Positions 10,794 through 43,727 of a DNA stretch of 44,938 nt are shown in pieces; position 1 is the stretch's first letter, and every line of letters starts with the position of its first letter. Position numbers and translations under genes: made by a program. The stretch spans positions 1 to 44,938 of the IMG/VR virus record IMGVR_UViG_3300032241_002276, one strand, 5' to 3'. Origin of the DNA: a virus. The notes under the pieces are model-generated. The model made no database searches. It was not told where the DNA came from and was given only the letters and a program-made list of their open reading frames with translations.

Positions 10794-10794
10794 T

Positions 10795-11836: not shown

Positions 11837-12078
11837 TAAATTATTTCACCAAGTGCTGATAGATAAGTTTCAATTAAAGCTTGTTCTTCTTGTCGAGCAG
11901 CTTTACTTTGCTTACGTAGACGAATGATCTTACGAATGATCTTATTATCAAAGCCAGTTTCTTTAGCTTCTGAGTAGATTTCCTTACGATCAGTCTTAAG
12001 TGCGTCCATATCTTCTTCAATTCGTTCAATACGATTGATGATAGCACGCAGTTCACCAGAGGATACAGTTTCAGTCAT
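11836..12078 (-). CDS. GapR/DUF2312 nucleoid-associated protein
   Basis: An 80-residue coiled-coil protein matching GapR: ELRAIINRIERIEEDMDALKTDRKEIYSEAKETGFD, then IIRLRKQ and RQEEQALIETYLSALG. GapR of Caulobacter and relatives binds AT-rich, overtwisted DNA ahead of replication and transcription forks. I use the ATG preceded by GAGGAAT; an upstream in-frame ATG would add five residues. The family is characteristic of Alphaproteobacteria and their phages, and this is the best host clue in the window. The phage copy may protect or organise AT-rich phage DNA. Confidence 0.9.
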   Translation of the reverse strand: MTETVSSGELRAIINRIERIEEDMDALKTDRKEIYSEAKETGFDNKIIRKIIRLRKQSKAARQEEQALIETYLSALGEII

Positions 12079-12082
12079 AATA

Positions 12083-12487
12083 TTATTCCTCAATTAGTGT
12101 CAATAGACCATGATTATGTTCATGCGAAGGGGCGCGCCAACCCTCTGGTTTTACTAGATCTGGAAGACCAAGAGGATTTGGTCGTTCCTTCTTAATTCCT
12201 ACTCTTTTGTTCATATTTGCATCATGAACTTCACTCCAAGCTCTATAAGCATTTACTTCAAAAGCATCAAGAGTACCAATTGCAACTACACAAAGATCAA
12301 TAAGTGCATCAACAATCTCTTCTGGATTATTCATATTTGCCTTAAGTTCATCGAGTTCTTCTTGTAGAAAGTCAACACGAAACTCTAGATACCTTTTTAG
12401 TTTTTCAGAATCAAATTTACGAACAGCATCGTTTACACCATACTTTGTATGCATATTTTCGATATCTGCTACCCAATCACCCATCAT
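12083..12487 (-). CDS. MazG-like all-alpha NTP pyrophosphohydrolase
   Basis: The 134-residue protein has the all-alpha NTP-PPase pattern. A first helix ends in EFRVDFLQEELDELKANM (the EExxE metal motif at about 42-46), and a second helix is EEIVDALIDLCVVAIGT (the ExxD motif). Such enzymes hydrolyse NTPs or dNTPs to the monophosphate plus pyrophosphate. In this gene cluster it could play the role of T4 dCTPase gp56, which removes dCTP from the pool, but the sequence is closer to MazG/PRA-PH relatives and the substrate is unknown. A Gly/Pro-rich C-terminal tail follows the helical domain. Confidence 0.78.
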   Translation of the reverse strand: MMGDWVADIENMHTKYGVNDAVRKFDSEKLKRYLEFRVDFLQEELDELKANMNNPEEIVDALIDLCVVAIGTLDAFEVNAYRAWSEVHDANMNKRVGIKKERPNPLGLPDLVKPEGWRAPSHEHNHGLLTLIEE

Positions 12488-20253: not shown

Positions 20254-20282
20254 ATTATACCATAAACTTAATTAAATGTACA
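20254..20282 (-). promoter_or_regulatory. Promoter for uvsY-uvsW
   Basis: Minus-strand TGTACA, 17 bp, TATAAT, located between the tail-protein stop and the uvsY start. The -35 variant TGTACA is shared with the gene 55 promoter, so these two may form a subclass. Confidence 0.6.
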
Positions 20283-20786
20283 CTAAATTCTTGAGTATTG
20301 ATATTCTCTATATTTGAATGTTACTTCAGCTGTGACATATTCGACATCTTCAAGTGTGTAATCTAATGTGAATCCTGATAGCTCTGCTGGATATAGATCA
20401 ATGAAATCAAATCTAATAAAAGCTTTAAGATTTGCATCTAAAATTAATAATTGCGCATCTACCTGTGGACCTAGACCAGATCCTTTTGGTTCATTAACAA
20501 GATTAGCATATTGAGTAAAGGTATCTGGTTTACCAATAGCTTGAATCCAATCAAATAGTTCAGTATAATTCTGCATATTTGAATCGATCTTGAATGTAAC
20601 TCTTAGATCTGCAAATTCCATATGTTCGCCAGGAACTGCTATGGTTTGAAATGGATTTGGTAAACCAGCAGTTACACCGACATCTATTCTAGGAAAATCT
20701 ACATTTTGAACATAATCAACAAAAGTAGGAATTTTCAAGAGCTGGAATTTATAATTTAGTGGTGATAAAAATTGTGGAGAAGCCAT
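20283..20786 (-). CDS. Tail-tube superfamily structural protein (T4 gp19/gp54-like)
   Basis: The 167-residue protein opens with ASPQFLSPLNYKFQLLKIPTFVDYVQNVDFPRI and has the strand-rich pattern and length of the T4-like tail-tube fold (gp19, 163 residues). Features include EFADLRVTFKIDSNMQNYTELFDWI in the middle and a C-terminal DVEYVTAEVTFKYREY. It could be the tail tube itself, the gp54 tube initiator or a related baseplate protein; I cannot decide. It is preceded by a consensus late promoter, as expected for a virion gene. Confidence 0.75.
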   Translation of the reverse strand: MASPQFLSPLNYKFQLLKIPTFVDYVQNVDFPRIDVGVTAGLPNPFQTIAVPGEHMEFADLRVTFKIDSNMQNYTELFDWIQAIGKPDTFTQYANLVNEPKGSGLGPQVDAQLLILDANLKAFIRFDFIDLYPAELSGFTLDYTLEDVEYVTAEVTFKYREYQYSRI

Positions 20787-21991: not shown

Positions 21992-22438
21992 GTGTACGAA
22001 ACCGCAAAGAAAGCAATTATAGAATCAAGTAATGAGTCTTCAGTTTACGTTGGAGCTGACTCTATTAGATTTAAAAAGAATGGCAAGTGGTTTGCTCGTT
22101 ATTCAACTGTAATTATTTTGCATGTTGATTCTAAGCATGGTTGTAAGTTATTTCATAAGTCCGTGGATATGGAAGATTATGGTAACATGAAACAACGTCT
22201 AGTAAATGAATCTTTTTACGCAATTGAAGCTGCTATGGCTGTCGTTGATGTTTTGGGAAAGAGAAAGATGGAAATCCATCTAGATTTAAACCCAAATCCA
22301 CAACATAAATCAAATGTCGCTGTTAAAGAAGCTTTAGGATATGTAAAAGGTTCAACAGGTATTGAAGCTAAGATTAAGCCATATAGCTTTGCAGCTACTC
22401 ATGCTGCAGATCATGCGGTAAGAAATAAGCTTCAGTAA
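21992..22438 (+). CDS. YkuK/DUF458 RNase H-like protein
   Basis: A 148-residue protein starting at GTG with AGGTG seven bases upstream. Its body, VYVGADSIRFKKNGKWFARYSTVIILH at the start and EIHLDLNPNPQHKSN in the centre, matches the DUF458 (YkuK) family. These have an RNase H-like fold with acidic residues on the first strand (GADS) and on the HLDLNPN strand. Substrate and function in bacteria are not well established. Its position inside a tRNA array, 20 bases after the tRNA-Asp-like gene and 10 before tRNA-Trp, is compatible with a role in RNA processing, but that is inference from location. Confidence 0.82.
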   Translation: MYETAKKAIIESSNESSVYVGADSIRFKKNGKWFARYSTVIILHVDSKHGCKLFHKSVDMEDYGNMKQRLVNESFYAIEAAMAVVDVLGKRKMEIHLDLNPNPQHKSNVAVKEALGYVKGSTGIEAKIKPYSFAATHAADHAVRNKLQ

Positions 22439-22951: not shown

Positions 22952-23104
22952 TATGACGAAGCATGTAATATAAGAAGTAATCGTGCTAAAGGAAATACAT
23001 GGGGTAGTGGTAATAAAGACAAACCCAAAGCTGATGAACATAAATTAAAAATTTCTACTACTATCAAAAGTATGTATAATAGTGGAGAATTTTTAGGGAG
23101 AAAA
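22952..23104 (+). pseudogene. Remnant of a homing endonuclease C-terminus (NUMOD3-like)
   Basis: Between tRNA-Ser and tRNA-Leu an open frame without a start codon encodes YDEACNIRSNRAKG and, further on, KPKADEHKLKISTTIKS. The second part follows the NUMOD3 DNA-binding pattern (K-P-x-S/A-x-E-x-K-x-K-I-S) common at the C-terminus of GIY-YIG and HNH homing endonucleases. The GIY-YIG enzyme at 31.1 kb has related motifs. No catalytic domain is left. The frame continues into the tRNA-Leu gene, showing it is no longer a functional gene. Confidence 0.6.
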
Positions 23105-24154: not shown

Positions 24155-24309
24155 AGCAACAACTGACAGGTTGGGAAAGACGAAAAGCTATAATTGCACA
24201 ATGGATAGTTATTCGTGTAGCTATGCGTTTAAGTCCTTTGTCGGTTCTTGCTCTTTGTTTAGACATTTCTCGTAAATATTATGAATCAATGGATGTAGAG
24301 GAAGAATGA
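24151..24309 (+). CDS. 52-residue hypothetical protein
   Basis: A small frame with ATGA overlaps at both ends, coupling it to the basic protein upstream and the epimerase downstream. The product has a basic N-terminus (GWERRKAIIAQW) and a hydrophobic middle (IVIRVAMRLSPLSVLALCL), which might be a short amphipathic or membrane helix, and an acidic end. Perfect fit in the gap is the main evidence that it is real. Confidence 0.62.
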   Translation: MKQQLTGWERRKAIIAQWIVIRVAMRLSPLSVLALCLDISRKYYESMDVEEE

Positions 24310-25259
24310 GTCATTATGTAGTAACTGGAGCCTGTGGTTATATTGGTTCCGTAATTTCAAAAAAGCTTATGCAACATGGGCATACAGTAACCACCATTGA
24401 TCTTAAGTCAACATATCCACTTTATACACACGACCACTGGGCTAATACGTGTTTCTCTTCTGAACTCTTTCTAAGACATATTATTGATAAGAAGATTGAT
24501 GGAATTTTTCACCTAGCGGCTCATAGTTTGCTGGGTCCTTCTGTATTTGATCCACTTCCATACTTTATAAATAATGCAGGACGTACAGCTGAAATGGTGC
24601 ATAATCTAGCATCAGAAGGTTGGAATGGCAAGTTTGTATTCTCTTCTACAGCTGCCACGTATGGTGCACAAGATCATACGGTCAATGAAGATTCTCCAAA
24701 GAATCCAATTAATCCATATGGCAAGTCTAAGCTTCAGGCTGAAGAAATTCTAGAAGAAGCTTTTAGAGCATATGGATTCTCTTCAGTAATCTTTAGGTAT
24801 TTCAATGTAGCCGGTGCAGACTTTGATGTAGGTCAACCAAAAAATGAACCGCATATTCTAACACAAATGTCTAAGGCTGCAGATTCCGGATCTACATTTA
24901 ATATCTATGGTCATGATTATGAAACACGCGATGGCACATGCATCCGCGATTATATTCACGTGAATGATATTGCAAATGCACACCTTCTTGCAACAGATAT
25001 TCTTGATAGAGAAAATGGATGTCTAAAATATAATCTTGGCACATCAACTGGAACATCTAATCTAGAACTAGTAAAGGCCTTTATTGATATTACTGGTGCA
25101 GATTTAGAATATAAATTAACAGATCGCCGGCCGGGTGATCCAGCTTTTCTAGTTTCAGACGCATCCAAATTCCAACGTGATACTGGTTATCTATTTCCAG
25201 AATCAAATCTTTACAATATAATTTCAAGTCAATGGGAATATTACAATAATGACAACTGA
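24306..25259 (+). CDS. UDP-glucose 4-epimerase-like NAD-dependent epimerase
   Basis: A 317-residue short-chain dehydrogenase of the extended type. It has TGACGYIGS (NAD-binding glycine motif, 7-15), the catalytic Ser/Thr in SSTAATYG near 118-125, the YGKSK catalytic Tyr-Lys near 138-142, and GalE-type RYFNVAGAD and DGTCIRDYIHVND motifs. It interconverts NDP-hexoses such as UDP-Glc/UDP-Gal. It starts a four-gene sugar cassette with 4-to-20-base overlaps. The product may supply a glycosyltransferase for DNA or surface glycan modification. Confidence 0.93.
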   Translation: MSHYVVTGACGYIGSVISKKLMQHGHTVTTIDLKSTYPLYTHDHWANTCFSSELFLRHIIDKKIDGIFHLAAHSLLGPSVFDPLPYFINNAGRTAEMVHNLASEGWNGKFVFSSTAATYGAQDHTVNEDSPKNPINPYGKSKLQAEEILEEAFRAYGFSSVIFRYFNVAGADFDVGQPKNEPHILTQMSKAADSGSTFNIYGHDYETRDGTCIRDYIHVNDIANAHLLATDILDRENGCLKYNLGTSTGTSNLELVKAFIDITGADLEYKLTDRRPGDPAFLVSDASKFQRDTGYLFPESNLYNIISSQWEYYNNDN

Positions 25260-27807: not shown

Positions 27808-27810
27808 TAT
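27782..27810 (+). promoter_or_regulatory. Promoter before the 371-residue gene
   Basis: TTGACA, 17 bp, TAATAT, inside the last codons of the isomerase gene and only 6 bases before the next ATG (27817). If used from this -10, the message would be leaderless or nearly so. Confidence 0.55.
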
Positions 27811-27816
27811 ATTATT

Positions 27817-28932
27817 ATGAAACAGAAACTTGACAAGAAAGCTACTAAGCGGCAAAAGATCCTTCTAATGGGCGATAAGTTCATTGGACCCGAGCCAACA
27901 AATGAAACAATCAAGACGCGTCTTGATGTTATTCATGCATGCAATTGGTATAATTATGCAGTTACACAAAAAGATTGTGTAAACTGGATTCTTGATTATA
28001 TGAAAACCAATAAGTATAGCTCACGTGAAATTGCCTTATATAAGACTTTGCCCGAATGGCGTACATCGCGTACAGCCGCGGCTTTTTGTCGTATGTTGAG
28101 CAATAATGTAGAGTTTATTAATGATAAATCAATGTATGTTGATGAATCAATTAAGAAAGCTTTATCTTATGTGGTTACTAAAGAAAAAGTTATTAAGGAA
28201 TCTTCTTTAACTGCAGAAGATAAGGCCCGTGATCGTCTCAATAATATTATTGGCAATGTAGAAGAGCAAATTGATCTATTCATTAAGAATGGTTATGTGA
28301 CTACTTTTGATCCATATAAGTATTTCCAATCAGCTGAACTTAAGCCAATTCAGGCTAAGCAAATCATTGACTTTTATCAACCACTTAAGGACGAACTATC
28401 ATATGCTATAATGGGCGGTGATGCTCAAGTTAAAGAAGCTTATGATAGAACTAAGATGGCAGATCGTAAGAAGTACAATACATTTATTCTTAAGATCATT
28501 TCAGATGCTATGGCATTTGTTGAGGCTAAGAAGGCTCAACGTAAGCCTCGTAAGATCAAGGAAAAGAGTTCTCAACAACTAACTTCTAAGATGAAGTTTG
28601 GTAAGGAAAGTTCTCAGTACAAGTTAGTATCAATTGATCCGTCTAAAATCATTAAAGCACAAAGCCTAATTGTGTTTAATACTAAATATAAGAAGTTGGG
28701 TGTATATATCGCAGCTGATTCTAATGGACTATCTGTGAAGGGTTCTGCAATTACAGGCTATGATGAAACTAAGTCAGTAAGTAAGACTCTACGAAAGCCA
28801 GAAGATATTCTTCCACAGGTACAAAGCCTAGGAAAGCTGGCATTCAATAAATTATTCAATGGTACCAAGACATCAGCTTCTAAGCTCAATGGTCGTATTA
28901 ACGAGGATACCATTTTGGTCAGGACAATGTAA
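27817..28932 (+). CDS. Conserved T4-like phage protein of unknown function
   Basis: A 371-residue, strongly basic protein. The N-terminal ~120 residues are helical (NWYNYAVTQKDCVNWILDYM), the centre has coiled, charged helices, and the C-terminal part after residue 270 is beta-rich (KLVSIDPSKIIKAQSLIVFNTKYKKLGVYIA). Proteins of this type appear near rnh in marine T4-like phages, to my recollection, without known function. The lysine-rich linker at 245-275 suggests nucleic-acid binding. It abuts the next gene (stop and start share a base). Confidence 0.7.
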   Translation: MKQKLDKKATKRQKILLMGDKFIGPEPTNETIKTRLDVIHACNWYNYAVTQKDCVNWILDYMKTNKYSSREIALYKTLPEWRTSRTAAAFCRMLSNNVEFINDKSMYVDESIKKALSYVVTKEKVIKESSLTAEDKARDRLNNIIGNVEEQIDLFIKNGYVTTFDPYKYFQSAELKPIQAKQIIDFYQPLKDELSYAIMGGDAQVKEAYDRTKMADRKKYNTFILKIISDAMAFVEAKKAQRKPRKIKEKSSQQLTSKMKFGKESSQYKLVSIDPSKIIKAQSLIVFNTKYKKLGVYIAADSNGLSVKGSAITGYDETKSVSKTLRKPEDILPQVQSLGKLAFNKLFNGTKTSASKLNGRINEDTILVRTM

Positions 28933-34416: not shown

Positions 34417-34623
34417 ATGAACAAAAGAGAAAAATTGATCAATTGGTACCGCCATCTGGGCACAGAAGAATTTTATGAGGTGGGCCAATCCCGTCCTCCT
34501 AAAAATGATCCTGAATTGGCCAAGGCCTATCTGGAGGGCTATCGCCTGGCCGATCGTAACCAAACGGATGCCGCCTATGAGCATGCCCTGGCTATGGAAA
34601 AAATCCACGATCGGATCCGTTGA
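34417..34623 (+). CDS. Early hypothetical protein (predicted leaderless mRNA)
   Basis: A 68-residue charged protein (MNKREKLINWYRHLGTEEF at its start) with a helical DRNQTDAAYEHALAMEKIHDR end and no recognised domain. The ATG coincides with the predicted +1 of the cassette promoter, and there is no space for a ribosome site. The stop TGA lies within the -35 of the next promoter. Confidence 0.7.
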   Translation: MNKREKLINWYRHLGTEEFYEVGQSRPPKNDPELAKAYLEGYRLADRNQTDAAYEHALAMEKIHDRIR

Positions 34624-36061: not shown

Positions 36062-36604
36062 ATGAATTATTGGCACCATCCTGATGTAGTACCATCAGTC
36101 GTGTTTAAGACTCGCGTTCGCGATGAGAGTATCGAAGGTCCTAACCCATATCGTTGGCAGGACGTGAATAGCTTTGATCTCTTTGGTGGTAAGCGAGTTG
36201 TGTTATTTGCTCTTCCTGGAGCCTTTACGCCTACCTGTTCTACCATGCAATTACCTGGTTATGAAAATAACTATGAAGAATTTAAGAGCCTAGGCATCGA
36301 TGAGATTTATTGTCTCTCGGTAAATGACTCATTTGTTATGAATAAGTGGGCTCAGGATCAAGGCCTTAAGAATGTTAAGGTGATTCCAGATGGCTCTAGC
36401 GTCTTCACCCGTGACATGGCCATGCTAGTGGATAAGGATAACCTGGGGTTTGGCGCCCGCTCTTGGAGATATGCTGTGATTGTCGATAATGGTAAAATTG
36501 AAAAGTGGTTCGTTGAGCCAGGTCTTCGTGATGACGCCGAAGATGATCCGTATGGTGAATCATCCCCCGAAAACCTGTTGGCCTATCTCAGAGGCAAGGA
36601 CTGA
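36062..36604 (+). CDS. Peroxiredoxin
   Basis: I start at ATG 36062 (AAAGGA upstream), giving 180 residues. The peroxidatic Cys is in LPGAFTPTCSTMQLPGYE (Cys59), the motif of Prx5/AhpE-type enzymes, followed by IYCLSVNDSFVMNKWA and the substrate-region RSWRYAVIVDNG. It reduces peroxides using thiols; glutaredoxin at 23.3 kb could be a partner. A long hairpin and an early promoter follow directly. Confidence 0.93.
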   Translation: MNYWHHPDVVPSVVFKTRVRDESIEGPNPYRWQDVNSFDLFGGKRVVLFALPGAFTPTCSTMQLPGYENNYEEFKSLGIDEIYCLSVNDSFVMNKWAQDQGLKNVKVIPDGSSVFTRDMAMLVDKDNLGFGARSWRYAVIVDNGKIEKWFVEPGLRDDAEDDPYGESSPENLLAYLRGKD

Positions 36605-36675
36605 AATCCCTTCTGGAGTGAATTTGGCTTTCAGCCGTGATGGTACCTATGGCCAAATTCACTCCAGAGGGAATT
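36605..36675 (+). repeat. Long hairpin element 1 (CTGGAGTG family)
   Basis: Arms of 23 bp at 36605-36627 and 36653-36675 (one C.A mismatch and one G.T), core CTGGAGTGAATTTGG/CCAAATTCACTCCAG, loop of 25 bases with a GATGGTACCTATGG motif. It starts right after the peroxiredoxin stop and its right arm runs into the -35 of promoter 3. Confidence 0.88.
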
Positions 36676-36701
36676 GACATTAATTCTCAGCCTGATAGAA
36701 T
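36674..36701 (+). promoter_or_regulatory. Early-cassette promoter 3 (leaderless)
   Basis: TTGACATTAATT, 16-bp spacer, TAGAAT, GGTCTC, then ATG at the predicted +1. Confidence 0.88.
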
Positions 36702-36707
36702 GGTCTC

Positions 36708-36851
36708 ATGAAAACAAATCAGAAAACCTGTCAGGCTCGCAACCCTGTGGCGCGATATGCCCACGTTTGCAATGTAGCCAAAAGCATCCCCGCCAAGCGT
36801 GGTAAGGGTTCCATTTATCGTCGTGTAAAGTTTATGAAGGAGCTTGATTAA
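36708..36851 (+). CDS. Early basic 47-residue protein (predicted leaderless)
   Basis: Encodes a very basic protein (MKTNQKTCQARNPVARYAHV at the start, then KRGKGSIYRRVKF) ending in LD. Two Cys at 8 and 21. No domain recognised; its charge suggests RNA, DNA or polymerase binding. Start is at the cassette +1. The stop overlaps the next start by one base. Confidence 0.72.
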   Translation: MKTNQKTCQARNPVARYAHVCNVAKSIPAKRGKGSIYRRVKFMKELD

Positions 36852-37033
36852 TGAAAGACTCAGACGTACTATATTTCCCAACATATAACGCCTTAGCAGA
36901 ATTTGCTAAGGCTAACGTAGATATGTACGCCAACGTATCTTTTTTTGATCCATCTAAACAATCGTGGACTCTGGTTCTTCATGAAGACGAAGACAATTCT
37001 GAATATAATCGACCGCGTCGCCGAATCGGTTGA
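36851..37033 (+). CDS. Hypothetical protein
   Basis: A 60-residue protein with an aromatic N-terminal half (VLYFPTYNALAEFAKANVDMY) and an acidic then basic end (HEDEDNSEYNRPRRR). Coupled to the leaderless gene upstream and overlapping the deaminase start by 53 bases in another frame. Confidence 0.55.
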   Translation: MKDSDVLYFPTYNALAEFAKANVDMYANVSFFDPSKQSWTLVLHEDEDNSEYNRPRRRIG

Positions 37034-37400
37034 GCCGGTATCTCAAGCTCGACTGGCCGCTGCTATTGTTTACAAGAATGATGTGGTAGCCATTGGTACC
37101 AATAAGAATAAGACGCATCCTCTGCAAAGTAAATTTGCCAAACATGAACAGGCGATTTATCTTCATGCGGAGATTGATGCCATTAAGAATGCTCTTCGTC
37201 ATCTGACTCATAAGGAATTGGCCAAGAGCACTTTGTATATCTCAAGAATGCGTTTTGATGCTTCTGAGACTAAACCAGTTTCTACAAATCTCAAGCGTGG
37301 TCTAGCCATGCCTTGTTCTGGTTGTATGAGAGCAATTAAGAGTTTTGGTATTAAAAACGTTTGTTTCACAACGGACGACCAGGAATTTGCCTGGCTGTAA
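36981..37400 (+). CDS. Cytidine/dCMP deaminase-family protein
   Basis: Starting at ATG 36981 gives 139 residues; an earlier in-frame ATG would add 12. The zinc site is HAE (62-64) and PCSGC (111-115). The N-terminus has SQARLAAAIVYKNDVVAIGTNK and there is a specific insertion between the two motifs. It is a paralogous fold to the dCMP deaminase at 9.7 kb but clearly different in sequence, so substrate may be a free nucleotide, RNA or DNA. The start overlaps the upstream small gene. Confidence 0.82.
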   Translation: MKTKTILNIIDRVAESVEPVSQARLAAAIVYKNDVVAIGTNKNKTHPLQSKFAKHEQAIYLHAEIDAIKNALRHLTHKELAKSTLYISRMRFDASETKPVSTNLKRGLAMPCSGCMRAIKSFGIKNVCFTTDDQEFAWL

Positions 37401-37419
37401 TTTTTTTGATGAGAATGGG

Positions 37420-37447
37420 TTTACATTAATTCGAGGCCATATATAAT
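37420..37447 (+). promoter_or_regulatory. Early-cassette promoter 4
   Basis: TTTACATTAATT, 16-bp spacer, TATAAT, GGTCTTATCAAAATCGG leader and AAAGGAA ribosome site. Confidence 0.85.
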
Positions 37448-37484
37448 GGTCTTATCAAAATCGGAAAACAAAGGAATCCGCACT

Positions 37485-38450
37485 ATGGCACACGAACTTG
37501 AAATTGTTAACGGTGAAGCTCAAATGGCTTGGTCAGGGGAAGTTCCCTGGCACGGTCTTGGCACCAAGGTTCTTCCTGATCTGACTCCTGAGCAGATGAT
37601 GGAAGCCGCTGGTCTTAACTGGCGTGTAGTAAAGCATCCCCTTTTCGCCCAAATTAATGGCGAACGCGTCGAGACCAATCACGAAGCTCTGGTTCGTGAA
37701 ACTGATGGTCGCATCCTCTCTATTGTAACTGACTCCTGGAATCCTGTTCAGAATGAAGAGGCTTTTGAGTTCTTTAACGAATTCGTAAATGCTGGCGATA
37801 TGGAAATGCATACTGCTGGTTCTCTTCGTGGTGGTCGTCAGGTCTGGGCTTTGGCCAAGATCAAGGACTCTTTCTTTGATCTCTTTGATGGTGATCGCAC
37901 CGAAGGCTACCTTCTCTTCTCTAATCCTCACCAATTTGGTAAGGCTATTGATGTTCGCTTCACGGCAATCCGTGTTGTCTGCAACAATACGCTGACTCTG
38001 AGCCTTGGTGCTGGAACTTCTCGTGGTGTAAGCCTTAACCATCGTAACATCTTTGATCCTTCTAAGGTCAAGGAAACTCTTGGTATTGCTACCGGTAACC
38101 TTCAACGTTACAAGGAAATGGCTGAGTTCCTCGGCTCTAAGCAATATAAGAAGGAAACTGTGGTTGAGTATTTCAATCGCATCTTCCCCTCTACCTCTAA
38201 GGCTAAGGAAGAGGAAAAGCAAACTGCTTCTCGTATGGCTCGTCTTGCTTACGAAGGTCTTGAGCTTCAGCCTGGTGCTGAGTATGCCGAAGGTTCTTGG
38301 TGGCAAGCCTTCAATAGCGTTACCTATCTGACCGATCATCGTGGTGGTCGTTCTGTAGATAACCGACTCAACTCTGCTTGGTTTGGTGGCAATAAGGATC
38401 GTAAGATCAATGCTCTTAACCTAGCGATGGAATTTGCGGAGGCTGCGTAA
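37485..38450 (+). CDS. DUF932 phage/plasmid protein
   Basis: I start at ATG 37485, which follows the cassette leader and AAAGGAA; the product is 321 residues. It opens AHELEIVNGEAQMAWSGEVPWHGLGTKV, the hallmark of the DUF932 family (phage/plasmid-like protein), and contains FTAIRVVCNNTLTLSLG and the C-terminal TYLTDHRGGRSVDNRLNSAWFGG. DUF932 proteins are frequent on plasmids and in phages and are often linked to DNA-metabolism loci; function is unknown. A strong hairpin terminator overlaps the stop. Likely highly expressed early, judging by promoter and codon bias. Confidence 0.9.
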   Translation: MAHELEIVNGEAQMAWSGEVPWHGLGTKVLPDLTPEQMMEAAGLNWRVVKHPLFAQINGERVETNHEALVRETDGRILSIVTDSWNPVQNEEAFEFFNEFVNAGDMEMHTAGSLRGGRQVWALAKIKDSFFDLFDGDRTEGYLLFSNPHQFGKAIDVRFTAIRVVCNNTLTLSLGAGTSRGVSLNHRNIFDPSKVKETLGIATGNLQRYKEMAEFLGSKQYKKETVVEYFNRIFPSTSKAKEEEKQTASRMARLAYEGLELQPGAEYAEGSWWQAFNSVTYLTDHRGGRSVDNRLNSAWFGGNKDRKINALNLAMEFAEAA

Positions 38451-38466
38451 GCAGCCTCCCTTTCCA
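38438..38466 (+). terminator. Strong intrinsic terminator after DUF932 gene
   Basis: GGAGGCTGC-GTAA-GCAGCCTCC, a perfect 9-bp stem with the gene's TAA stop in the loop, followed by CTTTCC. The T tract is short. Confidence 0.75.
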
Positions 38467-38468
38467 TT

Positions 38469-38678
38469 ATGCTGAGCCTATATTTGGCAGTTGCCATATT
38501 TGGTTTATTTGTTTACACCACTATTGTAAGCGCCTTGGTCTTTAAATCCAGTGGAGATGTAGTAGAAGTACTTTTAAGGTTAATTGCGATTGGTGTCGTT
38601 GTATGCGTGTGTTGGCCTTTAACAATTCCTATTGCAGCTGCACTTGGTCTAGGCTATTTAATCTCTAAAAGGAAATAA
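38469..38678 (+). CDS. Small membrane protein
   Basis: A 69-residue protein with two predicted transmembrane helices: roughly residues 3-25 (LYLAVAIFGLFVYTTIVSAL) and 36-63 (LLRLIAIGVVVCVC and PLTIPIAAALGLGYLI), and a basic C-terminal SKRK that should stay in the cytoplasm. No ribosome site is obvious after the preceding terminator. Could insert in the inner membrane to affect lysis timing, exclusion or energy status; nothing specific can be said. Confidence 0.6.
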   Translation: MLSLYLAVAIFGLFVYTTIVSALVFKSSGDVVEVLLRLIAIGVVVCVCWPLTIPIAAALGLGYLISKRK

Positions 38679-38705
38679 ATACATATAGTTACCAGGAGTA
38701 CCTAT

Positions 38706-38927
38706 ATGGATCTACATCGTTGGACGCCAGATATCCTTGAAAGACATGAACTTCCCAAGTGGTTTATTCAAATGGCTGACTATAGATCTGCAGGTAAAGT
38801 AGCATTCATAGTTTGGGATACATTCAACAAAGAGGTTATTCATGCCGACTACTATAAAGACGGCGAGTATTTCGAAACTAAAACATTCAAAGTTAAGATA
38901 AAACCACCCGCTAAAAGAATTTTGTAG
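38706..38927 (+). CDS. Hypothetical protein
   Basis: A 73-residue protein with a CAGGAG ribosome site. It has aromatic and charged content (MDLHRWTPDILERHELPKWF) and a beta-like second half (GKVAFIVWDTFNKEVIHADYYKDGEYF) ending in basic residues. No domain recognised. An AATAAATA (late-promoter-like) lies about 25 bases upstream. Confidence 0.58.
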   Translation: MDLHRWTPDILERHELPKWFIQMADYRSAGKVAFIVWDTFNKEVIHADYYKDGEYFETKTFKVKIKPPAKRIL

Positions 38928-38937
38928 GAGATATATT

Positions 38938-39189
38938 ATGGGTAAGAAGCGCCACCGCAAGAAGCTAGTGTCAAAGGGTCTACGTTCTAAGGTAGCCAAG
39001 AGCACAATCCGGGCTCTAGCTGCTTCCAGAGACTTTCTTTGGAAGTTGTCTAATAAGACCGCAGCTTGGAAGAAGTTCCAAAATCCATGGATTACCATTG
39101 AGAATCCAGATAAGTCAGCCACTAACCGTAGGTTTATTCGTGTACGTGCAAATGAACTCTGGGGAAATCCTAAGGTTGTGAAGGAATAA
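38938..39189 (+). CDS. Very basic hypothetical protein
   Basis: An 83-residue protein beginning GKKRHRKKLVSKGLRSKVAKS, followed by LWKLSNKTAAWKKFQNPWITIENPD. Its charge and the absence of export signals suggest nucleic-acid or ribosome binding. GGAG precedes the ATG. It follows the preceding gene by 10 bases. Confidence 0.58.
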   Translation: MGKKRHRKKLVSKGLRSKVAKSTIRALAASRDFLWKLSNKTAAWKKFQNPWITIENPDKSATNRRFIRVRANELWGNPKVVKE

Positions 39190-39268
39190 TTAAAGTTATG
39201 GGTGCACTAGAGTTAGTGTGCTTAAAGAGACGTAGTGGCTGGTTGCAAACAGGAACCACCTCCTCTCA

Positions 39269-39296
39269 TTGACATTAATTCCACATTTTTTATAAT
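39269..39296 (+). promoter_or_regulatory. Early-cassette promoter 5 (leaderless)
   Basis: TTGACATTAATT, 16-bp spacer, TATAAT, GGACCT, then ATG at the predicted +1. Confidence 0.88.
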
Positions 39297-39302
39297 GGAC
39301 CT

Positions 39303-39521
39303 ATGAAAACGATCGAAACGACCAAATGGCTCGGAACCGCCGCCCTCGTGGCTGCGACGGTTATCCGGGCTCTCAACATGAACCATTTTGCAGACGTCCT
39401 ATTGACATTAATCGGCGTTGTGTTCTGGTTCGTAGCCGGCCTGCTGATGCGCGATAAGCCGCTCATCGCCGTCAATGGGTTTTCCATTGGCATTCTTCTG
39501 TTTGGGCTTTTCCACGGTTGA
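39303..39521 (+). CDS. Small membrane protein (predicted leaderless)
   Basis: A 72-residue protein that is nearly all membrane: helices around residues 9-23 (LGTAALVAATVIRAL), 30-48 (ADVLLTLIGVVFWFVAGLL) and 54-71 (LIAVNGFSIGILLFGLF). It begins MKTIETTKW at the predicted transcription start. The GC content is high compared with the rest of the window. Its TGA stop overlaps the next -35. Inner-membrane early protein of unknown function. Confidence 0.68.
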   Translation: MKTIETTKWLGTAALVAATVIRALNMNHFADVLLTLIGVVFWFVAGLLMRDKPLIAVNGFSIGILLFGLFHG

Positions 39522-39545
39522 CATTAATTCGAGGCCTGATAGAAT
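39518..39545 (+). promoter_or_regulatory. Early-cassette promoter 6
   Basis: TTGACATTAATT, 16-bp spacer, TAGAAT, GGTCTCATCAAAATGAGG. The first ATG (39558) is only 6 bases after the predicted +1. Confidence 0.87.
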
Positions 39546-39557
39546 GGTCTCATCAAA

Positions 39558-39974
39558 ATGAGGAATGAAAAACAAATGACCAAGTTCGCTGAGTTCGATA
39601 AGGCGGTCTGCCGCCAACTGCGTAATGACATGGATGCTCTTCTGGCTAAGTATGCTCAAGAACATGGCATCAAGTTTCATGTCGGTAACATGAAGTTTAC
39701 TGCCGAATCCGTAAAGATCATTGTAGAAGCTACTGTCGAAGGTGGTGTTTCTCAAAAGCAGACTAAGCAACAAACCGATTTGGCTTACTTCGCTGCAGCT
39801 AATAACGTCTCTACGAATGAAATGAATGGCCGCCGTCTTGTTGGCTACAACTCGCGAGCTCACAAGATGCCTTGGATTTACCAAGATGTTCGCAGCGGTA
39901 AGCTGTTCAAGTGCAGCACTTCTACTGCTCGCATCTACTTCCCCACTTCACGTACTCTGATTGGAGCCATGTAA
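39558..39974 (+). CDS. Hypothetical early protein
   Basis: 138 residues if it starts at 39558; a second ATG six codons later has GAGGAA about 12 bases upstream and may be the real start. The N-terminal half is helical (FAEFDKAVCRQLRNDMDALLAKYAQEHGI), followed by beta-like KFHVGNMKFTAESVKIIVEATVEG. The C-terminal half has a VGYNSRAHKMPWIYQDVRSGKLFKCSTS segment. Not recognised. It is coupled to the next gene by a stop-start overlap. Confidence 0.68.
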   Translation: MRNEKQMTKFAEFDKAVCRQLRNDMDALLAKYAQEHGIKFHVGNMKFTAESVKIIVEATVEGGVSQKQTKQQTDLAYFAAANNVSTNEMNGRRLVGYNSRAHKMPWIYQDVRSGKLFKCSTSTARIYFPTSRTLIGAM

Positions 39975-40147
39975 TGGATAGTTATGTGGTTGTGACCTAT
40001 GATGATGAGGGTGTAATGGCCATTGATTCGGTCTTTACAAATGAAGATTATGCAAAGATATATTGCTATCAGAATCAAAATCATGACCATAACTGTCTCT
40101 TATATAAGATTATCAAGGCGCCTTGGAAAGCTGATCCCTATAAATGA
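39974..40147 (+). CDS. Hypothetical protein
   Basis: A 57-residue protein beginning DSYVVVTYDDEGVMAIDSVFT, with a helix (NEDYAKIYCYQNQN) and an Asp/His-rich middle. The beginning and spacing resemble small phage proteins of an unannotated type. It ends immediately before a terminator hairpin. Confidence 0.6.
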   Translation: MDSYVVVTYDDEGVMAIDSVFTNEDYAKIYCYQNQNHDHNCLLYKIIKAPWKADPYK

Positions 40148-40171
40148 GGGCCTTTAGGGGCCTTTTTTTTT
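40146..40171 (+). terminator. Intrinsic terminator before promoter 7
   Basis: Short GGCC/GGCC stem extended by A-T and G.T pairs, loop TTTAGG, and a run of nine T residues. It separates this unit from the next cassette 2-3 bases later. Confidence 0.78.
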
Positions 40172-40173
40172 GG

Positions 40174-40201
40174 TTGACATTAATTCGAGGCTTGATAGAA
40201 T
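40174..40201 (+). promoter_or_regulatory. Early-cassette promoter 7
   Basis: TTGACATTAATT, 16-bp spacer, TAGAAT, GGTCTCATAGGAATC then AAGGAA and ATG. Confidence 0.87.
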
Positions 40202-40228
40202 GGTCTCATAGGAATCAAGGAAACGATC

Positions 40229-40309
40229 ATGTCCAACGAAACACCTCCCCGCCCCAACCCCCGGGCCCACATCCCTTTGGTTGATGACAGATTCACGAGT
40301 CCCAAATGA
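40229..40309 (+). CDS. 26-residue proline-rich peptide
   Basis: The first ATG after promoter 7 with AAGGAA opens a 26-codon frame: MSNETPPRPNPRAHIPLVDD, then a short tail. It is proline- and arginine-rich, and its stop overlaps the next start as ATGA. It may be a leader peptide for the downstream gene, or a short functional peptide. Confidence 0.55.
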   Translation: MSNETPPRPNPRAHIPLVDDRFTSPK

Positions 40310-40470
40310 TTGACCCCACCACCACTCTTGAGAAAATTTTTAACGCGGTCCTGTTGACAAAAAATCAGGCCGAGGCTGACCTCCTGATGGAGGCCGCCGA
40401 CGTCATCGACCTTCTCCGATCCGAAAGGGATGAGTCCGAACGGATGGCTTTGATCCATTCGCGGGATTGA
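40306..40470 (+). CDS. Small helical acidic protein
   Basis: A 54-residue product beginning MIDPTTTLEKIFNAVLLTK with a heptad-like acidic helix (AEADLLMEAADVIDLLRSERDE). It is coupled to the proline-rich peptide upstream. The stop TGA lies inside the next -35. No family recognised. Confidence 0.6.
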   Translation: MIDPTTTLEKIFNAVLLTKNQAEADLLMEAADVIDLLRSERDESERMALIHSRD

Positions 40471-40494
40471 CATTAATTCAAGGCCTGATAGAAT
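40467..40494 (+). promoter_or_regulatory. Early-cassette promoter 8
   Basis: TTGACATTAATT, 16-bp spacer, TAGAAT, AGCCTTACAAAATCGG leader; the ATG at 40523 follows AAAGGG. Confidence 0.87.
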
Positions 40495-40522
40495 AGCCTT
40501 ACAAAATCGGAAAGGGCACGAC

Positions 40523-40702
40523 ATGAACGGGTACACCTACACATACGAAGACGGCACTGAAGTTTGGTCGGCTGAACCAATGACTTCTCAGGAGCTGGAT
40601 GAACACAAGGAATACGTAGACGGTATGTCTGAGTACTATGACAGTGATGATTATGAACCATACTACACTCTCGGTGAACCTCGAATCAATTGGAGCTACT
40701 AA
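40523..40702 (+). CDS. Acidic Tyr-rich early protein
   Basis: A 59-residue, strongly acidic protein: MNGYTYTYEDGTEVWSAEPM, then YYDSDDYEPYYTLGEP and an INWSY end. The net negative charge and aromatic spacing are those of possible DNA-mimic or polymerase-binding proteins, which is speculation. Start and stop overlap its neighbour by one base. Confidence 0.62.
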   Translation: MNGYTYTYEDGTEVWSAEPMTSQELDEHKEYVDGMSEYYDSDDYEPYYTLGEPRINWSY

Positions 40703-40911
40703 TGGCCTATATGTCTTATTGCGCTTTTGAAAACACTCTTAATGATCTTCGCCTGTGCACTGCACTTATGAGTGAGGCTTGCGATGATGATAAGACTCTT
40801 GAAGAGTTTATCGAGTCTCGGCCTTCTTTTTATGAAGGCAAAGCCGTCCGTGCTCTTATTGATCAGGCGCGGCAGCTGATAGAGTTGTCCGAAGAAATGG
40901 AACGATTTTAG
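40702..40911 (+). CDS. Helical hypothetical protein
   Basis: A 69-residue protein with two helical blocks (AFENTLNDLRLCTALMSEA and AVRALIDQARQLIELSEEM). No domain known. It overlaps the previous stop by one base and is followed by the SWIM gene with a GTG start one base into the stop. Confidence 0.6.
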   Translation: MAYMSYCAFENTLNDLRLCTALMSEACDDDKTLEEFIESRPSFYEGKAVRALIDQARQLIELSEEMERF

Positions 40912-41123
40912 TGAAGAAACGCTATTCTCGTAAAGCTGTAGAATATCCTGGAATTAACTTTAAGGGCCACATGTATGCAGGTACAGTGTGGCCTTTTCCT
41001 ACTAAGGACGGAGAATATTCTGTGACTCTGACAGAAAAGGGCCTGACTTGTGATTGTTATGGGATGATCTTCCATGGTAAATGCAAGCATGTTCGGAATG
41101 TCGGTGAAAGGCTTGTAGGCTGA
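40911..41123 (+). CDS. SWIM zinc-finger miniprotein
   Basis: A 70-residue protein starting at GTG (overlapping the previous TAG). The second half is a SWIM finger: SVTLTEKGLTCDCYGMIFHG and then KCKHVRNV, giving C-x-C, about 10 residues, then C-x-H. The N-terminus is basic (KKRYSRKAVEYPGINFKG). SWIM domains bind DNA or proteins in larger proteins; this stand-alone version is short. A long hairpin follows the stop. Confidence 0.72.
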   Translation: MKKRYSRKAVEYPGINFKGHMYAGTVWPFPTKDGEYSVTLTEKGLTCDCYGMIFHGKCKHVRNVGERLVG

Positions 41124-41127
41124 TCAG

Positions 41128-41209
41128 AAATCCCTTCTGGAGTGAATTTGGAGCCATTTGATGGGCGTTCCATGGGTTGGCGATCGCTAGCGCACTCCAG
41201 AGGGAATTT
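41128..41209 (+). repeat. Long hairpin element 2 (CTGGAGTG family)
   Basis: Arms of 17 bp at 41128-41144 and 41193-41209 (one C.A mismatch, one G.T), core CTGGAGTG/CACTCCAG. The loop of 48 bases includes a TGATGGGCGTTCCATGG motif that resembles the loop of element 1. It lies 8 bases upstream of promoter 9. Confidence 0.87.
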
Positions 41210-41217
41210 TGAGCCGG

Positions 41218-41245
41218 TTGACATTAATTCGAGGCCTGATAGAAT
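41218..41245 (+). promoter_or_regulatory. Early-cassette promoter 9
   Basis: TTGACATTAATT, 16-bp spacer, TAGAAT, AGCCTTACAAAATCGG leader; ATG at 41274. Confidence 0.87.
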
Positions 41246-41273
41246 AGCCTTACAAAATCGGAAATGGAATGAC

Positions 41274-41456
41274 ATGAACATCGACAAATTTTTCAAGGCT
41301 CTCGACTCCCAACGGGATGCCTATTCGTCTGACCTCGACAAGGGTAACGCCTTCACTGTAGGGTATCTCAAGGGTACTCTGGAGGCGATTGCCATCAAAT
41401 ACCCTGAAGTGGATGAATACCTGAATACCTTTGTTCAACAATTGAAGGAAGTCTGA
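41274..41456 (+). CDS. Hypothetical early protein
   Basis: A 60-residue helical protein: MNIDKFFKALDSQRDAYSSD, GYLKGTLEAIAIKYPEVDEYL and a FVQQLKEV end. I start it at the ATG after the cassette leader; a longer upstream frame would run through the hairpin and is rejected. Function unknown. Confidence 0.65.
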   Translation: MNIDKFFKALDSQRDAYSSDLDKGNAFTVGYLKGTLEAIAIKYPEVDEYLNTFVQQLKEV

Positions 41457-41458
41457 TC

Positions 41459-41518
41459 ATGGGTAAGACAATCTATCTGGCTCACATTGAAATTAACACT
41501 GAAGAGGAAAATTACTAA
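41459..41518 (+). CDS. 19-residue peptide ORF
   Basis: An ATG two bases after the preceding stop opens a 19-codon frame (MGKTIYLAHIEINTEEENY) that overlaps the next start by one base. It probably provides translational coupling; a functional peptide cannot be excluded. Confidence 0.42.
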   Translation: MGKTIYLAHIEINTEEENY

Positions 41519-41667
41519 TGATATCCATTGAATCATTTTATGTGGAGTTTCAATCACTTGATTCTGTCTATGACAAGATTGCCTTTCTTAAGAAAATGAG
41601 TCAGATGAAGCTGCCCTATTACATTAACTATGATGGTCTTATTGCGGCCTGGACCAAAAAACTATAG
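41518..41667 (+). CDS. 49-residue hypothetical protein
   Basis: Starts at an ATG overlapping the 19-codon ORF's TAA. The product begins MISIESFYVEFQSLDSVYDK and ends with LIAAWTKKL, with hydrophobic spacing consistent with a small alpha/beta fold. Unrecognised. The next gene starts two bases after its stop. Confidence 0.55.
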   Translation: MISIESFYVEFQSLDSVYDKIAFLKKMSQMKLPYYINYDGLIAAWTKKL

Positions 41668-41668
41668 T

Positions 41669-41836
41669 ATGGTTAAGTCATGCGCCTCCGGCCTCCACTT
41701 CTCTCATGCTACCTATTATGATGTAACACCTTCTAGCAAGACCCTGATATGCAAAGTTCTAAAAGATGACATCATTACTATTCAACAAGGCAAGATTCGA
41801 GCCAAGAAAGCTCTAGTGCTGGGAGTATGTGAATGA
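41669..41836 (+). CDS. Small protein resembling a CxxGLH phage domain
   Basis: A 55-residue protein with CASGLHFSHATYYDV near residues 5-19, then SKTLICKVLKDDIITIQQGKIRAKKALVLG. The pattern C-x2-G-L-H, followed by strands of the form V-x-V-x-x-D-I, recalls a domain in some large phage proteins including rIIB-associated ones, as I remember them. The match is tentative. No good ribosome site; start overlaps by coupling. Confidence 0.5.
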   Translation: MVKSCASGLHFSHATYYDVTPSSKTLICKVLKDDIITIQQGKIRAKKALVLGVCE

Positions 41837-42039
41837 ATGAATCCTACAACTCAGCCTTTGAACATCGTGTATCTATCCTTAGAAAGAAGCTAAAAGAAGA
41901 ACTATCTAAAAAGAAACATGACAGAAGCAAGAAGACTATTAAACATATTATTAGCGAACTAAGGAAATGGGAAGCTATTATTAAGAAGAATAAGAAGATA
42001 TCCAAGTGTCCTCATTGCAATGGCGAACTTCACTATTAA
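41833..42039 (+). CDS. Basic coiled-coil protein with CxxC motif
   Basis: A 68-residue protein: MNESYNSAFEHRVSILRKKL, a lysine-rich helix, then CPHCNGELHY at the end. CPHC plus a nearby His gives an incomplete zinc ribbon that could bind metal by dimerisation. Coupled to the previous gene (ATGA overlap). Confidence 0.6.
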   Translation: MNESYNSAFEHRVSILRKKLKEELSKKKHDRSKKTIKHIISELRKWEAIIKKNKKISKCPHCNGELHY

Positions 42040-42112
42040 TAATTCCTATAATAAGAGCAGTATTAATAAAACCGGTTTATAACGGGTTTGCGTCCTCTGC
42101 CTCTCGCTCTGG

Positions 42113-42140
42113 TTGACATTAATTCTGAGCCTGATAGAAT
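42113..42140 (+). promoter_or_regulatory. Early-cassette promoter 10
   Basis: TTGACATTAATT, 16-bp spacer, TAGAAT, AGCCTTACAAAATCGG leader with AAGGAAACG before ATG 42173. Confidence 0.87.
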
Positions 42141-42172
42141 AGCCTTACAAAATCGGAAACAAGGAAACGAAC

Positions 42173-42739
42173 ATGGCTTTTATCGAAAACCCTATGAATG
42201 TCTATGGCGATGCTCATGTCTATGACAATGCTAGAGTCTCTAGCAATGCTGTAGTCTTTGGCAATGCTAAAGTCTTTGACTATGCTTATGTCTCTGGTCG
42301 TGCTAATGTCTTTGGTAGTGCTGTAGTCTTTGGCAATGCTCATGTCTATGACAATGCTAGAGTCTATGGCAATGCTGTAGTCTTTGGCAATGCTTATGTC
42401 TCTGGCAATGCTTATGTCTCTGGCAATGCTGTAGTCTCTGGTAGTGCTGTAGTCTATGGCAATGTTGTAGTCTCTGGCAATGCTATCATTAAATCTAATA
42501 GCGATTGGTTTAATATCATTTGTAATAATAAAGTTTTGACTGCTTACAAGTCCAACAATAACCTGGGCTATGAGATTAATGTTAATACCTTTGATAAGAG
42601 TCTCGATCAAGTTCAAGACGATCTTAGCCAAAACCAGATCAATATGATCAAGTCCTGGATGAAGCCGGCTAAGACCGCGAAACAAATCCGGATCGAGGAA
42701 CTGGAGGCCGAACTGATGGCGCTGATCCAGGCCGGTTGA
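42173..42739 (+). CDS. Left-handed beta-helix hexapeptide-repeat protein
   Basis: A 188-residue protein whose residues ~10-105 are about 16 hexapeptide repeats of the type V-[YSF]-[GDS]-N-A-x, the signature of a left-handed beta helix (three hexads per coil, about five coils). In DNA the repeats form 18-bp-related units such as GGCAATGCTGTAGTCTCT. The C-terminal ~80 residues are a mixed domain (WFNIICNNKVLTAY...) and a helix ending EELEAELMALIQAG, which may trimerise. Acyltransferases use this fold, but no catalytic His is evident. The long antisense frame here is a shadow. The TGA stop overlaps promoter 11. Confidence 0.82.
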   Translation: MAFIENPMNVYGDAHVYDNARVSSNAVVFGNAKVFDYAYVSGRANVFGSAVVFGNAHVYDNARVYGNAVVFGNAYVSGNAYVSGNAVVSGSAVVYGNVVVSGNAIIKSNSDWFNIICNNKVLTAYKSNNNLGYEINVNTFDKSLDQVQDDLSQNQINMIKSWMKPAKTAKQIRIEELEAELMALIQAG

Positions 42740-42763
42740 CATTAATTCTCAGCCTGATAGAAT
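42736..42763 (+). promoter_or_regulatory. Early-cassette promoter 11
   Basis: TTGACATTAATT, 16-bp spacer, TAGAAT, AGCCTTACAAAATCGG leader with AAGGAACGAC before ATG 42794. Confidence 0.87.
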
Positions 42764-42793
42764 AGCCTTACAAAATCGGAAACAAGGAACGAC

Positions 42794-42955
42794 ATGACCG
42801 ACATCCAAATCACCAAGGCCCGGCTGGCGGCCATCCGCGAGGCCGCTGGAATTTGTCTGGAACGTATGCCCACCCGGGTCCAGAAGCCCGCTGGTTCCTA
42901 TGAGTCCGACTACCGCTACTCCAAGTTTTCTCGCCACCATAAGCTGAGGGCCTAG
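42794..42955 (+). CDS. 53-residue basic early protein
   Basis: A product with a helix (ITKARLAAIREAAGICLERM) and a basic aromatic end (YRYSKFSRHHK). GC-rich, like the neighbouring unit. No domain known. The AAGGAACGAC ribosome site is the usual cassette one. Confidence 0.62.
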   Translation: MTDIQITKARLAAIREAAGICLERMPTRVQKPAGSYESDYRYSKFSRHHKLRA

Positions 42956-42961
42956 GCCAAC

Positions 42962-43042
42962 ATGATTCGTGCTATTATTGAGCTTGCCCTGCTAACCATT
43001 TGCGGTGTAATGATCTGCATTTTTGCCATCGTGGTCCGCTAA
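42962..43042 (+). CDS. 26-residue single-pass membrane peptide
   Basis: ATG 42962 opens 26 codons: MIRAIIELALLTICGVMICI, then FAIVVR. Apart from the charged ends it is one hydrophobic helix with two Cys, fitting an inner-membrane peptide such as those that perturb host membranes. It overlaps the next start by one base. Confidence 0.55.
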   Translation: MIRAIIELALLTICGVMICIFAIVVR

Positions 43043-43218
43043 TGGCCCGGCACGTGGATGTGTTTGCTGACGAGCATTTCGTATACGTGGACACCGGCTA
43101 TGAGGCTCGAGCCAGATCTGGGTCGAGTACCAGGAAACGTGCGTGTCCTGTAGTGGATTGTGAGAGATATGCAATGATCCTCCTATCCTCTGCGGTAATC
43201 GTACATTTTTCCTGCTAG
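43042..43218 (+). CDS. Hypothetical protein
   Basis: A 58-residue protein: ARHVDVFADEHFVYVDTGYE, a basic stretch with Cys residues, and a hydrophobic end (MILLSSAVIVHF). Coupled to the membrane peptide upstream. Codon pattern is less regular than its neighbours; it could be an eroded gene. Confidence 0.42.
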   Translation: MARHVDVFADEHFVYVDTGYEARARSGSSTRKRACPVVDCERYAMILLSSAVIVHFSC

Positions 43219-43249
43219 CAACTATGCGCTAAAACGCGATTAGTTTTAT

Positions 43250-43319
43250 ATATACCTCTGGTTTTATTTTGATCACTTTTCCCCGGGGTAGAGCGATTGA
43301 TTTGCAACCAGAGGTATAT
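43250..43319 (+). repeat. 14-bp inverted repeat around a tRNA-like fragment
   Basis: ATATACCTCTGGTT pairs perfectly with AACCAGAGGTATAT. The 42-base loop holds GGGGTAGAGCGATTGATTTG, which resembles the D-arm/anticodon part of tRNA-Ala(TGC) and similar tRNAs. Confidence 0.7.
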
Positions 43320-43339
43320 GCTTTTTGCGGCATTGTGAG

Positions 43340-43421
43340 AAACGCCATCTGGAGTGAATTAGACGCGAATTTGTGATGGCGCCTATGGCTAACGATCTCT
43401 GGTGCACTCCAGATGGCGTTT
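43340..43421 (+). repeat. Long hairpin element 3 (CTGGAGTG family)
   Basis: Arms of 17 bp at 43340-43356 and 43405-43421, perfectly paired (AAACGCCATCTGGAGTG). Relative to elements 1 and 2, bases next to the core change on both arms so that pairing is kept. The loop shares GTGATGGCGCCTATGG with element 1. It is followed by TTGG and promoter 12. Confidence 0.88.
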
Positions 43422-43429
43422 TGGCCTGG

Positions 43430-43457
43430 TTGACATTAATTCCGTACCTGATAGAAT
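43430..43457 (+). promoter_or_regulatory. Early-cassette promoter 12 (leaderless)
   Basis: TTGACATTAATT, 16-bp spacer, TAGAAT, GGTCTC, then ATG at the predicted +1. Confidence 0.88.
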
Positions 43458-43463
43458 GGTCTC

Positions 43464-43727
43464 ATGACAAACGAACAGACATACCAAGAGCGGATCGGCC
43501 GCTATCGCATCATCCGCCATGAGGTTCTCCCTCTCGAGCACCAGGCGTCCTATCGACTTCGTGGCATCGATCCAGACGACCTCTGGTCTCTCATTTGGTC
43601 TTTCAATGATCTTGAGGCCGCCGAGAAGTGCCTAGCCGATTGCAACGAGCATAAAGCATCATTCCAGACGTATGCTCTGAAAGACGCTGGCCAGGAAGAA
43701 TTTATTGAAAGGACCGCGTGGTTTTAG
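43464..43727 (+). CDS. Early hypothetical protein (predicted leaderless)
   Basis: An 87-residue protein (MTNEQTYQERIGRYRIIRHE at the start) with an RLRGIDPDDLWSLIWSFNDLEAAEKC segment and a C-terminal helix. The first ~50 residues have alternating strands that could be a beta hairpin followed by a helix. No domain recognised. The ATG starts 7 bases after TAGAAT. Confidence 0.7.
   Translation: MTNEQTYQERIGRYRIIRHEVLPLEHQASYRLRGIDPDDLWSLIWSFNDLEAAEKCLADCNEHKASFQTYALKDAGQEEFIERTAWF

Follow-up and report, generated by a model that had tools for sequence, protein, structure and literature searches.

Three hairpins of one sequence family, E1-E3, lie at the right end of a T4-like phage fragment from fresh water, each upstream of a member of a repeated promoter family. 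We tentatively read them as hairpins specific to this lineage and carried by gene cassettes; each would lie in the 3' region of the upstream transcript and insulate or cap that transcript, a reading that we regard as plausible. The core genes of the 44.9-kb fragment (44,938 nucleotides, all of which was analysed and is called the window) include those for UvsW and a gp46-like protein, and the best isolate match to its UvsW is that of Methylophilales phage Melnitz (57% identical).

Sequence and fold of the three hairpins

E1 (36604-36676, + strand) pairs the arms AATCCCTTCTGGAGTGAATTTGGC (36605-36628) and GCCAAATTCACTCCAGAGGGAATT (36652-36675) around a 23-nt loop with GTGATGGTACCTATG. E2 (41128-41209, +) pairs AAATCCCTTCTGGAGTG and CACTCCAGAGGGAATTT around a 48-nt loop, and E3 (43340-43421, +) has a perfect 17-bp stem, AAACGCCATCTGGAGTG/CACTCCAGATGGCGTTT, an additional inner A-T/G-T paired stretch, and a 48-nt loop with GTGATGGCGCCTATGG. 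All three have the same, coding-strand orientation and belong to the strongest hairpins in the window. The local alignment scores were 61 (E1-E2), 49 (E1-E3) and 60 (E2-E3), compared with maxima of 31, 36 and 31, respectively, in 1000 dinucleotide shuffles, and the MFE z values of E1, E2 and E3 were -6.87, -4.61 and -5.92, all 200 shuffles being beaten. A window-wide search for a fourth copy found none, leaving exactly three dispersed copies. The scores, the folds and the copy search confirm the hairpins at the positions reported in a first-pass annotation of this DNA; the family is real, beyond chance. A common loop motif had been ascribed to all of them; in the form GATGG-n2-CCTATGG it occurs exactly only in E1 and E3, and the loop of E2 has GATGGGCGTTCCATGG.

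All six arms contain the same 8-bp core, CTGGAGTG/CACTCCAG. The ungapped 17-bp outer stems of E2 and E3 differ at three positions of the 5' arm and at exactly their three partners in the 3' arm; the chance of three differences landing on partner positions is 1/680, considering location only. The first-pass annotation described this change, CCCTT/AGGGA to GCCAT/ATGGC, as preserving pairing and hence as indicating selection on RNA structure. Two of the double changes do pair (T-A to C-G and T-G to A-T), whereas the third site is G-C in E3 and a C.A mismatch, or flanking bulges, in E1 and E2, so that the varying sites pair at 3/3 in E3 and at 2/3 in E1/E2. Pairing is kept amid the change of the outer stem, but selection itself is not established, because there is a single evolutionary contrast and templated quasi-palindrome correction could yield the same pattern.

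The inner helix is a perfect 8 bp in E1 and is partly paired in E3, including two G-U pairs; E2 has an alternative inner hairpin in place of the E1/E3-type helix. The stems reach 22-24 bp in E1 and E3, and the regular stem of E2 is about 13-16 bp. In all three cases the + strand gives the more stable fold, owing to the G-U pairs (+ vs - strand: E1, -40.5 vs -38.1; E2, -36.9 vs -30.2; E3, -41.4 vs -35.8). The strand bias and the paired stem changes, though the latter amount to one contrast, point to an RNA from the coding strand as the folded form. A coding explanation, with a reading frame conserved through the elements, was assessed by eye and dropped because that frame contains stops in E3.

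Placement at cassette junctions

The right end of the window is a run of small + strand genes, many of which have a near-identical promoter in front. The promoter family, TTGACATTAATTC-N5-CTGATAGAAT, occurs in 11 copies in the window at ≤3 mismatches (0 expected), and each of E1-E3 is located upstream of one copy, ending at the -35 box or 8 nt ahead of it. These had been called early cassette promoters; the placement before cassette promoters is supported, and "early" is a putative label taken from the sigma-70-like sequence.

E1 starts beside the TGA that ends a peroxiredoxin gene (Redoxin/AhpC-TSA; 36062-36604, +), and its end runs inside the -35 box of the following promoter (TTGACATTAATTCTCAGCCTGATAGAAT; 36674-36701, +). 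The ATG of the small gene under this promoter (36708-36851, +; 47 aa with an RNPVA...KRGKGS motif) lies 6 nt past the -10 box, and homologues of the gene are found in L192, G001, L161 and L159. E2 starts 4 nt past the stop codon of another small gene (40911-41123, +; CDCYGMIFHGKCKH), whose product appears SWIM-finger-like by eye and has no Pfam match, and is followed by the promoter at 41218-41245 (+). The gap between stop codon and hairpin is about 0-5 nt for E1 and E2. E3 precedes the promoter at 43430-43457 (+), again with the ATG 6 nt past the -10 box, and a downstream gene of 87 aa (43464-43727, +) whose L162 homologue is 66% identical. The description of each hairpin as flanked by a stop codon and a promoter suits E1 and E2, but E3 lies about 120 nt past the last plausible ORF stop (43218), within a longer non-coding stretch, and a second hairpin (43250-43319, +; perfect 14-bp stem and 42-nt loop, then GCTTTTTGC) without sequence kinship to E3 is positioned in between. 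Other junctions of the region have an ordinary terminator (40146-40165 followed by T8) or nothing.

The U-runs 3' of the stems comprise 2, 4 and 4 residues in E1, E2 and E3, respectively, which corrects the T tracts of 3-4 reported earlier. Intrinsic (Rho-independent) terminators combine a short loop with a U-tract. The weak or missing U-tract and the loops of 23-48 nt count against ordinary intrinsic termination by E1-E3, which also fall outside the terminator scan list, in agreement with the earlier view that they are not classical terminators.

Searches for homologues and hairpins in related phages

Searches of 2.9 million viral contigs and of about 100 related records revealed no sequence homologue of the E elements, and blastn against isolates gave no match. 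Exact-pattern scans of the viral contigs with the core palindrome and with loop plus core returned chance matches or none, and a genome scan gave three unrelated matches attributable to chance. E1-E3 match no Rfam family at the gathering score; the permissive matches were microRNA-like folds far under the cut-off. A covariance model that included the promoter (R1) matched relatives mainly through the promoter. Two hairpins seemed, on inspection by eye, to be promising relatives: L192 7678-7745, at the junction of E1 and with the loop TGATGG...CGCCATATGGC, and G001 22988-23049, with a 16-bp stem and the loop ATGGGCTCGTATGG. Since 75-527 and 74-891 of 1000 shuffles, respectively, scored equally well, they are positional analogues only. 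By sequence, E is absent from G001, G053/G054 and L192, and no transfer of any E copy between phages was found. As far as the data examined go, the E sequence appears to be private to this phage. The first-pass annotation held that a lack of further homologues would count against its proposal. At the sequence level this is largely the situation, and hairpins of other sequence occupy some of the equivalent positions in relatives.

The promoter family is common to the window, G001, G053/G054 and L192. G001 (IMGVR_UViG_3300036944_000900) is collinear with the window at roughly 45-70% protein identity. In the relatives, strong hairpins of other sequence precede a minority of the promoters. Structure upstream of promoters exceeded that at random positions in G001 (p = 0.01; sites with z of about -3.4 to -4.4), and three of 14 promoter sites in G054 had z of about -3.3 to -3.6. 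The enrichment was not significant for the whole window (p = 0.14), G054 (p = 0.07) or L192 (p = 0.88). The 3' side of homologous peroxiredoxin genes bears a GC-rich hairpin followed by TTT in L080, a 16-bp perfect hairpin in L147 and a promoter in L084. Other cassettes of G001, like some of the window, have ordinary terminators in this place (e.g. 28276 and 31669). A short G001 hairpin, AAATCCCTCT..AGAGGGATT, has the outer stem sequence of E1 and an E1-like fusion with the -35 box. At the E3 gene G054 has different hairpins, and at the E2-equivalent junction of the G053/G054 phage the promoter sits directly on the stop codon, the hairpin being absent. Given the other hairpins after peroxiredoxin genes and at the junctions of relatives, the junction often bears some hairpin. 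This suggests that hairpins may recur at the junction although their sequence turns over fast.

An inverted copy of the -35 box (GAATTAATGTCAACC...GGTTGACATTAATTC) is present upstream of some promoters in G001 and G053/G054. Inverted extended -35 copies (TTGACATTAATTC or TTGACAAAAATTC) face the promoter -35, and the resulting hairpins, which include the -35, are located at 10767-10837, 12076-12123 and 14052-14099 in G054 and at 27808-27859, 22278-22339, 24304-24366 and 24678-24737 in G001. Like E1-E3, these hairpins of related phages are strong and accompany that promoter family, but they use the -35 as one arm and their sequences are unrelated. G001 also has a GCTCCGTGCACGGAGC palindrome family, to which the hairpin at 22988-23049 before a promoter belongs; a second member, at about 20255-20300, lies beside an ordinary terminator.

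Comparison with known systems

Promoter early stem-loops (PeSLs) were reportedly described by Arbiol et al. (2010) and Comeau et al. (2014). The REP/BIME palindromes of enterobacteria are, like E1-E3, repeated, extragenic, palindromic and located at gene 3' ends; E1-E3 differ from them in the longer stem and loop, the small number of copies and the promoter coupled to each.

Papers citing the PeSL studies connect these elements with the shuffling of genes in T4-like phages (PMC4503421, PMC3950731). The likeness to E1-E3 lies in the T4-type carrier (here with UvsW and the gp46-like protein), in a repeated stem-loop with an early-type, sigma-70-like repeated promoter amid small genes, and in stems that vary while pairing stays. 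In the RB49 intergenic regions examined, however, the stem-loop has about 8-9 bp and a small loop and lies within the promoter spacer/-10 (e.g. TTGACATGCAAAGGGAGTATGCTATAATACTCCC). It is physically part of the promoter there, whereas E1-E3 lie wholly upstream of the -35, with stems of 13-24 bp and loops of 23-48 nt. The setting is therefore comparable and the structural feature is lacking, and E1-E3 may be regarded by analogy as an unusual version of the T4-type PeSL cassettes. RB49 also has separate terminator-promoter junctions (34421-34525 and 45265-45367). E1-E3 share with such T4-like junctions, including that at 40146-40165 in the window, the hairpin between stop codon and promoter, but the terminators have tight loops and at least 5 T, compared with the large loops and 2-4 T of E1-E3.

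Possible role of the hairpins

RNA polymerase leaving the upstream gene would transcribe the element, and the nascent RNA would fold into the 13-24-bp stem. The stem may stop, slow or cap the transcript, which would lower read-through and leave a protected, possibly processed 3' end; with read-through reduced, the downstream cassette would rely on its own promoter. Hairpin and promoter would form a unit that is duplicated or lost jointly with the small genes, like the T4-type promoter/stem-loop cassettes. The sequence family, its structure and position and the co-located paired stem changes are what the analysis shows; that the elements are transcribed, alter read-through or RNA ends and move as units is what we infer.

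The first-pass annotation left the function open among RNase III sites, insulators, small RNAs and protein-binding sites. We favour a promoter-linked 3'-region or insulator role because three similar coding-strand hairpins precede members of the 11-copy promoter family, and because of their fold z values, the differences at partner positions and the + strand preference. Further reasons are that E1 and E2 follow stop codons where other cassettes of the window and G001 have ordinary terminators, that relatives show hairpins of other sequence at promoters and after peroxiredoxin, that the G001 hairpin AAATCCCTCT..AGAGGGATT reaches into the -35 box like E1, and that E2 is missing at the equivalent junction in G053/G054. 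Against insulation stand the non-significant upstream-hairpin enrichment in the window, G054 and L192, the lack of a homologue outside the window in the searches above, and the invariance of the 8-bp core, which is more than pairing alone demands.

Cleavage by RNase III offers a different reading, in which the E1 and E3 stems would be cut in read-through mRNA, parting the messages and setting their stability as do the processing sites of T7 and lambda. The intercistronic position and long stems without a U-tract would suit it, and at 22-24 bp E1 and E3 have the duplex RNA of about 20 bp or more on which the enzyme acts. E2, however, offers a regular stem of only about 13-16 bp, RNase III does not require an invariant core, and the promoter immediately behind would make processing needless for the downstream gene; we consider this reading unlikely, if worth keeping in view. 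In another reading, a phage or host protein would bind the invariant CTGGAGTG...CACTCCAG half-sites in the DNA upstream of the -35 and regulate the promoter. All six arms share the 8-nt core, its distance to the -35 (6 nt in E1, 17 nt in E2/E3) differs by about one helical turn, and an inverted -35 copy (GAATTAATGTCAACC...GGTTGACATTAATTC) precedes some G001 and G053/G054 promoters. Such binding is nonetheless rather improbable, as the outer and inner stems, outside any half-site, retain their symmetry despite sequence change, the G-U pairs point to RNA from one strand, and the half-site spacing of E1 differs by 9 bp from that of E2/E3.

Templated quasi-palindrome mutation is a known T4 process, and templated correction of this kind, not selection, could have kept the symmetry of duplicating REP/MITE-like palindromes with little or no function. 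Exactly three dispersed copies without homologues elsewhere, presence or absence at the E2 junction and the rare-hairpin pattern in relatives would fit this origin. We nevertheless consider it doubtful, since a shared orientation and placement just before a promoter in 3/3 copies is unlikely by chance, and neither target duplications nor a transposase was seen. A small RNA precursor or trans-acting riboregulator would account for the compact stable fold and the loop sequence conserved between E1 and E3, but it is very improbable, as neither E1 nor E2 was seen to have a dedicated promoter ahead of it and there is no Rfam relative.

If E1-E3 do insulate without a U-tract, they would exemplify another way of keeping shuffled small genes independent in phages whose early transcription uses the host polymerase, and the idea of promoter/stem-loop cassettes would then also cover uncultured T4-like phages of fresh water. 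A stronger form, which we consider improbable, is that a specific phage or host factor recognises the invariant CUGGAGUG/CACUCCAG core. The elements would then be U-tract-free transcription insulators or 3'-end elements of a new class, attached to promoter cassettes by this T4-like lineage, and at these junctions every phage lineage would evolve a hairpin sequence of its own.

Other features of the promoter cassettes

An ATG exactly 6 nt past the -10, at the expected transcription start, is found at the window promoters 34383, 36674, 39269 and 43430, at 3/6 of the L192 promoters (1575, 4823 and 6012) and at one in G001. This spacing suggests leaderless mRNAs for a subset of the cassettes; the remaining cassettes have a leader of 20-40 nt. 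The 7 nt 3' of the -35 hexamer (TTAATTC) are conserved like the hexamer itself in several related phages (e.g. window 36674, 41218 and 43430), suggesting that recognition may go beyond sigma-70. An imperfect-repeat protein with a YdcK beta-solenoid match is encoded at 42173-42739 of the window, and its stop codon is the TGA within the TTGACA of the next promoter.
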